DNA of 47,239 bases, taken from NCBI GenBank assembly GCA_945897435.1, contig CAMDFJ010000009.1:1-47239 (forward strand), written 5' to 3'. The position numbers were made by a program, and so were the translations under genes. Each line of letters begins with the position of its first letter. Position 1 is the stretch's first letter. This DNA comes from Candidatus Kuenenia stuttgartensis. GTDB lineage: Bacteria > Planctomycetota > Planctomycetia > Pirellulales > UBA1268. The notes beneath the pieces are model-generated. The model was not told the origin of the DNA and did not search any database. It saw only the letters and a list, made by a program, of their open reading frames with translations. Positions 18,092 to 21,427 of this stretch are shown one piece after another.

Positions 18092-18193
18092 GGATGCATC
18101 CCTCCGCGGAATCATAGAGGCCGTTTCCGGGCGGCACCAACGCCATTCCGAGAGGACTCAGGAAATCGCACGGAAATGCCGATTTCTGATTCG

Positions 18194-18222
18194 TTGACAG
18201 CCACCCGCGTGCATCCTACGAT
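18194..18222 (+). promoter_or_regulatory. Sigma70-type promoter of fdxA
   Basis: TTGACA (18194-18199), a spacer of 17 bases and TACGAT (18217-18222). The -35 is a perfect consensus match. Transcription would start near 18229, giving a leader of about 67 bases before the fdxA ATG. Confidence 0.7.
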
Positions 18223-18295
18223 TCGCGCAGTTTGCCAGTTCTCCCAGACGGACATTTCGCTCTCCAGACATCACGCTCTCGAGGAGTCTTCGATC

Positions 18296-18568
18296 ATGAC
18301 GCACGTCGTTGCCGAGCCCTGTTTCGCCTGCAAGTACACCGACTGCGTGGTGGTCTGCCCAGTCGAATGCTTCTACGAAGGCGACAAGATGGTCTACATC
18401 CATCCTGACGAGTGCATCGACTGCGAGGCCTGCGTTCCGGAGTGTCCCGTCGAGGCCATCTTCCACGAGGACAACCTTCCGGCCGAGTGGAAGGACTTCA
18501 AGGAACTCAACGCTGAAATGTCGCCCCAGCTTCCGGTGATCACCGAGAAGAAGGATCCGCTCTGCTGA
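18296..18568 (+). CDS. fdxA: Seven-iron ferredoxin FdxA type
   Basis: Small cytosolic electron carrier of 90 residues with one [3Fe-4S] and one [4Fe-4S] cluster. The N-terminal cluster motif is in [18 protein letters not shown], where the second Cys of a normal CxxCxxC run is displaced, and the second motif is [16 protein letters not shown]. The C-terminal extension with WKDFKELN is typical for FdxA. ATG 18296 has GAGGAG ten bases upstream. The frame is open upstream, but the conserved start THVVAEPC fixes this codon. Its partner is unknown; no oxidoreductase is adjacent. Confidence 0.93.
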
Positions 18569-19632: not shown

Positions 19633-19956
19633 ATGCTCCATTACTCCTGTGACATCTGCAAGCGGCCAATCAATGCCCACGCAGATGTCAGACACGTCCT
19701 CAAAATCGAGGTTTTTCCAGCCGTCGAAGACATCGCCGGCGGTTGCTGCGACGGAGGAGAGTCGGACAGCGACCACCTGGAAGAGATGCAGGACCTGCTC
19801 GAAAGCATCGACGAGCAGACAAGCGACGCCAACGTTTCCTTCGACGACGGCACCCGCTCGATGCGTTTCGATCTCTGCGATGCCTGCCGGCAGCGGTTCG
19901 TGATGAACCCGCTGGGCATCAAGTCGGGCAAGCAACTCGACTTCAGCAATAACTAG
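19633..19956 (+). CDS. Putative zinc-binding protein with two CxxC motifs
   Basis: A 107-residue cytosolic protein. It starts with MLHYSCDICKRPINAHADV and ends with a second pair in FDLCDACRQRF, so one zinc could be held by the two CxxC knuckles. The middle is acidic and helical (SDHLEEMQDLLESID) and has a CC pair. I associate this layout with small planctomycete proteins of unknown role. GGAGAAAG just upstream supports the start. The stop codon lies in the first arm of the hairpin array that follows. Confidence 0.7.
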   Translation: MLHYSCDICKRPINAHADVRHVLKIEVFPAVEDIAGGCCDGGESDSDHLEEMQDLLESIDEQTSDANVSFDDGTRSMRFDLCDACRQRFVMNPLGIKSGKQLDFSNN

Positions 19957-20006
19957 CTCCACGCAAACACACGGCATACTGCCGTTGTTTGCTTGGCCGG
20001 CTAGTT
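19951..20006. repeat. First hairpin of the array (bulged stem inside an outer inverted repeat)
   Basis: The arms GCAAACA-C-ACGGCA and TGCCGT-TGTTTGC (19963-19992) pair over 13 bp with one bulged C and a TAC loop. It is enclosed by AACTAGC (19951-19957) and GCTAGTT (20000-20006), a perfect 7-bp inverted repeat that includes the TAG stop of the preceding gene. Confidence 0.85.
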
Positions 20007-20085
20007 ACACGGAAAATCTCGGCATCCTGCCGAATTTTCCTTGGCGACCTCCGGTCGCTGGTGATCACACGGCCCTCCGGGCCTG
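20006..20085. repeat. 80-bp direct repeat, copy 1, made of three hairpins
   Basis: The unit holds three stems that each have the loop TCC. Stem one has the arms GGAAAAT-C-TCGGCA and TGCCGA-ATTTTCC with one bulged C (20011-20040). Stem two is GCGACC/GGTCGC (20044-20058). Stem three is GGCCC/GGGCC (20071-20083). A GTGATCAC palindrome (20061-20068) lies between stems two and three. Confidence 0.92.
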
Positions 20086-20102
20086 ACCTCTGTCCGATGT
20101 GG

Positions 20103-20120
20103 GACAGGCTTCAGCCTGTC
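20103..20120. repeat. Perfect inverted repeat between the two 80-bp copies
   Basis: GACAGGCT and AGCCTGTC pair perfectly around two bases. It lies in the 45-bp spacer between the two repeat copies. Confidence 0.85.
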
Positions 20121-20130
20121 GTAACGCTCC

Positions 20131-20210
20131 TACACGGAAAATCTCGGCATCCTGCCGAATTTTCCTTGGCGACCTCCGGCCGCTGGTGATCACACGGCCC
20201 TCCGGGCCTG
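20131..20210. repeat. 80-bp direct repeat, copy 2
   Basis: Identical to copy 1 over 80 bases except for one T to C change at 20180, which turns one base pair of the second stem into an A-C mismatch. The copies are 125 bases apart, start to start. The next gene begins 147 bases downstream, and the remaining sequence shows no clear promoter. Confidence 0.92.
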
Positions 20211-20356: not shown

Positions 20357-21427
20357 ATGGCCGCCACCAAACTCAAGATCGCCTCGATTCCCGGAGATGG
20401 CACTGGCCCCGAGGTGACGGCCGAGGCGATGAAGGTGTTGGCTGCGGTCGCGAAGATCGACGGATTTGGCTTCGAGGTCGAAACGCTCGACTGGGGTGGC
20501 GACCGCTACCTGAAGACGGGCGAGATCATTCCCGAGGGTGGTCTCGATCTGCTGCGGTCGAAGGATGCGATCTTCCTGGGTGCGATCGGACATCCCGGGG
20601 TGGCGCCGGGCATTCTCGAAAAGGGCCTGCTGCTCGACCTCAGGTTCAAACTCGATCAATACATCAACCTTCGGCCGGTAAAACTGCTCCCCGGCGTGGA
20701 AACGCCGCTGGCCGGACGCGGGCCGAAGGACATCGACTTCGTCGTGGTCCGCGAGAACACCGAGGACCTCTACTGCGGCGTTGGCGGCTACCTCAAGAAG
20801 GGCACGCCCGACGAGGTCGCGGTGCAGCAGGCCATCTACACGCGAAAGGGATGCGAACGCTGCATCCGCTGGGCGTTTGACTACACGCGAAAGCGGAACA
20901 GCCCCAAGAAGACGCTCACGCTGGTCGCCAAGACGAACGTGCTCACCTTCGGCCACGATCTCTGGTGGCGGACGTTCCAGGAGGTGGCCAAGGACTATCC
21001 GGACGTGAAGACCGACTACAACCACGTCGATGCCTGCTGCATGTGGATGGTCAAGAATCCTGATGCCTATGACGTGATCGTCACCACCAACATGTTTGGC
21101 GACATCATCACCGACCTCGGGGGTATCCTTCAGGGCGGCATGGGCGTGGCCGCCGGTGCCAACCTCAACCCCGACAAGGGGGGCGTCAGCATGTTTGAAC
21201 CGATGGGGGGAAGCGCGCCCAAGTACACCGGCCAGAACGTGATCAATCCGATGGCCGCGATCAACGCGATGGCGATGCTGCTCGAGCACAGCGGGCACCC
21301 CGCCTCGGCGGCGAAGATCGACCGAGCGGTGGCCGAGGTGACGGGCACGAAGATGAAAAGTCAGGCGGCCGGCAAGATGGGCCACGGCACCCGCGAGATC
21401 GGCGACCTCGTGGTGGCTGCAATCTGA
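20357..21427 (+). CDS. Isopropylmalate/isocitrate dehydrogenase family enzyme
   Basis: NAD(P)-dependent decarboxylating dehydrogenase, 356 residues. The N-terminal SIPGDGTGPEVTAEAM, the substrate region LLLDLRFKLDQYINLRPV, FVVVRENTEDLYCG, the metal-binding Asp residues in TTNMFGDIITDLGG, and the cofactor loop GGSAPKYTGQ identify the family. The LLxLRxxLDxYxNLRP pattern favours isopropylmalate dehydrogenase, while RENTEDLY is more like isocitrate dehydrogenases, so the substrate stays open. ATG 20357 begins the conserved sequence; GGAG is 12 bases upstream. It converges on the Gfo/Idh gene. Confidence 0.85.
   Translation: MAATKLKIASIPGDGTGPEVTAEAMKVLAAVAKIDGFGFEVETLDWGGDRYLKTGEIIPEGGLDLLRSKDAIFLGAIGHPGVAPGILEKGLLLDLRFKLDQYINLRPVKLLPGVETPLAGRGPKDIDFVVVRENTEDLYCGVGGYLKKGTPDEVAVQQAIYTRKGCERCIRWAFDYTRKRNSPKKTLTLVAKTNVLTFGHDLWWRTFQEVAKDYPDVKTDYNHVDACCMWMVKNPDAYDVIVTTNMFGDIITDLGGILQGGMGVAAGANLNPDKGGVSMFEPMGGSAPKYTGQNVINPMAAINAMAMLLEHSGHPASAAKIDRAVAEVTGTKMKSQAAGKMGHGTREIGDLVVAAI

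Follow-up and report, generated by a model that had tools for sequence, protein, structure and literature searches.

The window, the 47,239-nt stretch of DNA analysed here, comes from a 3.0-Mb draft genome in 205 contigs that is 96% complete. At 19951-20210 it carries an array of hairpins between two genes (Table 1). The elements listed by the initial annotation are present at the places given: three hairpins of the same layout with a bulged C (M1 in Table 1), further stems with TCC loops (M2 and M3), a GACAGGCT palindrome and an 80-bp direct repeat. In unit 1, the M1 hairpin has the lower stem GCAAACA/TGTTTGC, the bulged C, the upper stem ACGGCA/TGCCGT and the loop TAC. In units 2 and 3, the corresponding parts are GGAAAAT/ATTTTCC, the bulged C, TCGGCA/TGCCGA and the loop TCC. 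The 265-nt stretch folds with a z-score of -9.2 as DNA and -8.9 as RNA, and none of 200 shuffled sequences was equally stable. A search of the array against Rfam matched no family.

Table 1. Features of the hairpin array and of the genes on either side (positions in the window)
Feature	Position	Strand	Remarks
Upstream gene, 107 aa	19633-19956	+	Kept across the genus; no confident Pfam match
TAG stop codon of the 107-aa gene	19954-19956	+	Anchor of the array
Leader CTCCAC	19957-19962	+	6 nt, from the stop codon to the first stem
Unit 1, M1 hairpin	19963-19992	+	Bulged C at 19970; unit without M2 and M3
Unit 2	20001-20084	+	M1 20011-20040, M2 20044-20058, M3 20071-20083; covariance model 101.1 bits
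80-bp direct repeat	20006-20085 (copy 1), 20131-20210 (copy 2)	+	One change between the copies
M4 palindrome GACAGGCTTCAGCCTGTC	20103-20120	+	Between units 2 and 3
Unit 3	20126-20209	+	M1 20136-20165, M2 20169-20183, M3 20196-20208; covariance model 94.3 bits
Downstream gene, isocitrate/isopropylmalate dehydrogenase family	20357-21427	+	

A dispersed family of three-hairpin units

The array belongs to a dispersed repeat family. A DNA search of its own genome gave 54 matches, and one M3 motif alone gave 68. We fetched 53 stretches around copies from this genome and scanned them with a covariance model, which found at least 88 units grouped in 59 arrays. This copy number is a lower bound because repeats break the assembly. 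Many units lie at contig ends (own-genome contigs C36, C78, C104, C158, C188 and others).

A unit of about 84 nt consists of the three hairpins M1, M2 and M3, preceded by a leader that ends in TTCAC. The leader consensus is (C)TRNNTTCAC, and CTAG is frequent only where the leader meets a stop codon; a CT dinucleotide opens 91 of 168 units and is thus no general feature. M1 has 7 bp, the bulged C, 6 bp and a 3-nt loop, TCC or TCG (TCG in 51 of 129), and is followed by TTGG. Its flanks, CA on the 5' side and TG on the 3' side, pair across a C-T mismatch. M2 has 6 bp and a (C)TCC loop, and after a spacer comes M3 with 5 bp and a TCC loop; the loops of both hairpins are almost always TCC. M4 is a separate palindrome between units, which gives several arrays a period of 122 nt. 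In some units the bulged C sits one position lower (6 + 7 bp), and in a smaller subfamily (L200, L228, L096) it is on the 3' arm.

The lower stems of M1 differ widely while pairing is kept. Besides the two versions seen in the window, they include GCGACGG/CCGTCGC, GGAACGG/CCGTTCC, GGGAATT/AATTCCC, GGCAAGT/ACTTGCC and GCAAATC/GATTTGC. The initial annotation had noted covarying stems in three hairpins, and the same holds in an alignment of 45 units from six genomes, in which 97.3% of the cells are paired and 15 pairs show changes on both sides. Double-change cells number 191, compared with 56 in shuffled alignments. The covariation score is 0.440 vs 0.122 in shuffles (none of 500 as high), and it falls to 0.02-0.10 when the pairing partner is slid. 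One caution is that units of the same genome are related to each other, but stem sequences vary from genome to genome and also among orthologous loci. Some of the covariation may stem from a few master copies, because units are homogenised within genomes (9 of 13 orthologous pairs, see below). The asymmetry between G-U and A-C (25 vs 16, p = 0.21) does not tell the two strands apart as the one that folds. The argument that kept structure with changed sequence reflects selection on folding is supported by the covariation across the 45 units. That argument had been made dependent on further copies and on covariation, and both were found.

The repeat family is present in all six genomes of the genus. 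Across the taxonomic family, a group of uncultured planctomycetes, the covariance model matched 45 of 72 genomes, in 7 of 12 genera. Another 198 genomes, drawn from the rest of the phylum, gave no match. These scans used stricter filters, which weak or very diverged members could escape. The named records with matching units are planctomycete metagenome-assembled genomes, with a few doubtfully labelled exceptions; the unit-bearing records CAMAVC01, CAMCQY01 and CAMCPF01 are labelled Planctomicrobium piriforme and Candidatus Kuenenia stuttgartiensis, labels that may be misassigned. Our literature searches found no description of this hairpin repeat family.

Anchoring behind stop codons

The arrays are placed with respect to the gene upstream. 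In the own genome, 16 of 59 arrays have the stop codon of a long open frame on the same strand exactly 6 nt ahead of M1; the counts are 10 of 26 for G002 and 13 of 64 for G005. Any other distance from stop codon to M1 occurs at most twice per genome in these three genomes. A C precedes the stop in 37 of the 39 anchored arrays vs a background of 50% (p = 3e-9), and the stop is TAG in 23 of the 39 vs 26%. Many other arrays start near a stop codon with M4, M3 or a damaged unit. The arrays are therefore trailers that begin right at the upstream gene's stop codon, which is the wrong place for the regulatory leader that had been proposed, and nothing in the analysis supports the packaging site that had been named beside it. 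Covariation and placement mark the array as part of a family of repeats whose fold is under selection and whose copies sit at the ends of genes.

Hairpins behind genes recall intrinsic transcription terminators, which could have multiplied at gene ends. Both the position at 3' ends and the A- and T-rich sequence around the upper stem of some versions are in keeping with such an origin, and in the window, where ATTTTCC comes directly after the GC-rich upper stem, there are five terminator-like sites vs 0.5 expected. However, this T-run belongs to the lower stem, and it is absent from the versions common in relatives (GCGACGG/CCGTCGC and GGAACGG/CCGTTCC). A conserved terminator was rejected on such stem variants, and terminator action is not the shared function, because the U-run is not conserved. 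The bulged C, M2, M3 and the fixed leader are also not terminator features, and we regard the terminator explanation as improbable.

In the own genome, the units share a single strand in 49 of 49 arrays, and the upstream gene runs in the same direction as the array in 37 of 46 cases (as called with a simple custom gene caller). A few model matches on the opposite strand occur in G002 and G005. Orientation bears on the idea that the opposite strand serves as a decoy for CsrA, since the TCC loops read GGA there. The near-constant TCC loops of M2 and M3 would suit a decoy, CsrA occurs in 72 of 72 genomes of the taxonomic family (with three matches in the own genome), and the minus strand gives weak rsmX matches with E-values of about 2. 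Yet those matches score far below the gathering score, the TCG loops of M1 read CGA on the other strand, and the presence of CsrA is not in step with that of the repeats. Decoys of the CsrB/RsmX type carry repeated GGA in hairpin loops of the transcribed strand; here GGA occurs only opposite to the strand of the upstream gene. Because the arrays are oriented like that gene, antisense transcripts would have to come mainly from convergent genes. We consider a CsrA decoy highly improbable.

Empty, filled and conserved orthologous sites

The same gene ends are found with and without arrays. For the 107-aa gene of the window, the protein end is the same in G005, G002 and G001 and no array follows it there, and G003 has an array of different sequence after the same TAG. 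Conversely, units with different stems follow directly after the natural stop of the ferredoxin gene (18176-18568 in the window) in G005 and G002, while the own genome and G003 have none there. At these two loci the array is anchored to the stop codon that belongs to the gene itself, because the array-less orthologs end at the same residue; insertion inside a gene end, with the element supplying the stop codon, is ruled out at both.

By upstream gene, 13 array positions are shared among three genomes (six between G000 and G005, two between G000 and G002 and five between G002 and G005); with about 3,000 genes per genome, we estimate, rather than compute, that fewer than one shared position per comparison is expected by chance. 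In 9 of the 13 orthologous pairs, the unit resembles units elsewhere in its own genome more than it does its ortholog, so units are homogenised within genomes. Two pairs show the reverse. The orthologous units L200/L228 differ at 1 of 96 nt and L069/L195 at 3 of 84 nt, while the adjacent 300 nt of coding DNA differ at 43 and 47 positions, respectively. These non-coding units are thus 96-99% identical between species next to coding DNA that is about 85% identical. Recent spread is unlikely to be the reason and was rejected, because the genus holds no close second copy of either unit. What remains for these pairs is selection on the element, or gene exchange confined to it.

The suggestion that the array is a mobile palindromic element is partly supported: the family is dispersed and high in copy number, present or absent at orthologous sites and homogenised per genome. 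A search of the own genome, as a draft that is 96% complete, found no Y1_Tnp gene. Across the taxonomic family, Y1 genes occur in 22 of 60 genomes and show no correlation with the repeats. The Y1 loci of relatives are mostly without units, and other palindromes flank those that we read. One divergent Y1 group (G005, G014, G036 and G049) does have a unit in its vicinity in G005, G014 and G049 (a weak one in G049), but it is flanked by different palindromes. A RAYT was rejected as the mobiliser on these three grounds: no Y1 gene in the own genome, no family-wide correlation, and, for the RAYT genes that we read, a place among other palindromes.

One such gene, a divergent RAYT-like Y1 gene of 192 aa (L099:4344-5317, G005 contig 106), lies among another palindromic repeat, AGAAAGCCCGAGGCGTAAGCCGAGTGGATGCCC, and its relatives in L087 and L088 lie among yet other palindromes. 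These genes likely represent separate planctomycete RAYT/REP pairs.

Origin and function of the repeats

Among known systems, the family is closest to the REP elements, yet it fails three of their defining features that we tested. Like the REP/BIME elements associated with TnpAREP/RAYT (E. coli and the GTAG and CGTC families), the repeats are short, high-copy intergenic palindromes, mostly at the 3' ends of genes, with an imperfect, bulged stem that often touches stop codons (PMC3733652; PMC8266576; PMC12306157); REPs of the GTAG family frequently provide a stop codon or abut one (PMC3733652). The GTAG or CGTC tag is absent, however, the leader being NTTCAC; neighbouring units do not alternate in orientation; and no RAYT gene flanked by the repeat was found in this draft genome. 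The three-hairpin unit of about 84 nt and the stop codon at one fixed distance also differ from REP/BIME. Elements of the MITE, ERIC and RU type are likewise non-coding, dispersed and foldable. Unlike them, the units have no evident terminal inverted repeats (their ends are not complementary), are oriented to the upstream gene and start at stop codons.

We favour, with a probability of about one half, a lineage-restricted, REP-like family of three-hairpin units behind stop codons that has been spread or homogenised and is kept as RNA structure in 3' UTRs. The units would spread, or become homogenised, through an activity with a preference for C-TRR (mostly CTAG or CTGA) at natural stops that also recognises the folded strand. 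Arrays that are kept would form the beginning of the 3' UTR in the transcript and act as RNA. At 6 nt past the stop codon, the first stem would lie at the expected leading edge of a terminating ribosome, where it may form a structural barrier that sets the stability of the mRNA 3' end, or termination and recycling. The analogy is with E. coli, where stop-proximal REPs are reported to act in this way; those that lie at most 15 nt from a stop codon are described as stalling ribosomes in PMC12306157, which cites Liang 2015 for it. The 6-nt geometry could also be a by-product of insertion targeting.

The serious rival is a purely selfish REP-like element that moves as single-stranded DNA, mobilised in trans by an HUH or other nuclease, because E. 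coli TnpAREP cuts at CT and contacts a bulged C (PMC8266576). The fold and the bulged C would then be kept only for recognition by the enzyme, the target would be CTRR, and harmful insertions elsewhere would have been lost. Concerted evolution within genomes, presence and absence at orthologous sites and the C before the stop in 37 of 39 arrays all fit such an element. Against it stand the own genome without Y1_Tnp and the Y1 genes uncorrelated with the repeats, and the two orthologous units that are near-identical across species without sister copies. Other intergenic insertions should, moreover, be tolerated as well as those at a stop codon. We consider a purely selfish element possible.

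A stronger form of the favoured reading, which we think rather unlikely, would make the repeats a new class of 3'-UTR RNA. Here a set of bulged-C hairpins, spread by RAYT-independent, stop-targeted movement to 6 nt behind the natural stops of many genes, would act on terminating ribosomes or mRNA 3' ends, with a few copies conserved above the adjacent coding sequence.

Whether stop-proximal palindromes such as REPs are selfish or kept as parts of 3' UTRs is a long-open question, and in this family it can be separated locus by locus. The family is a natural, replicated case of repeats tied to stop codons with an accuracy of one base; its orthologous sites are found both empty and filled, and its stems come in many sequences. 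It also points to a putative mobilising or homogenising activity in planctomycetes.

Two observations concern the surroundings of individual arrays. In L134 (G001 contig 685), a stop codon, 6 nt and a bulged-C hairpin follow a gene that, judged by eye only, reads like that for ribosomal protein bL35. Downstream of arrays there is often another, longer repeat whose ends are inverted (GGGTCGGGGTTGCCCG ... CGGGCAACCCC), as in L020, L022, L023 and L065 of the own genome.
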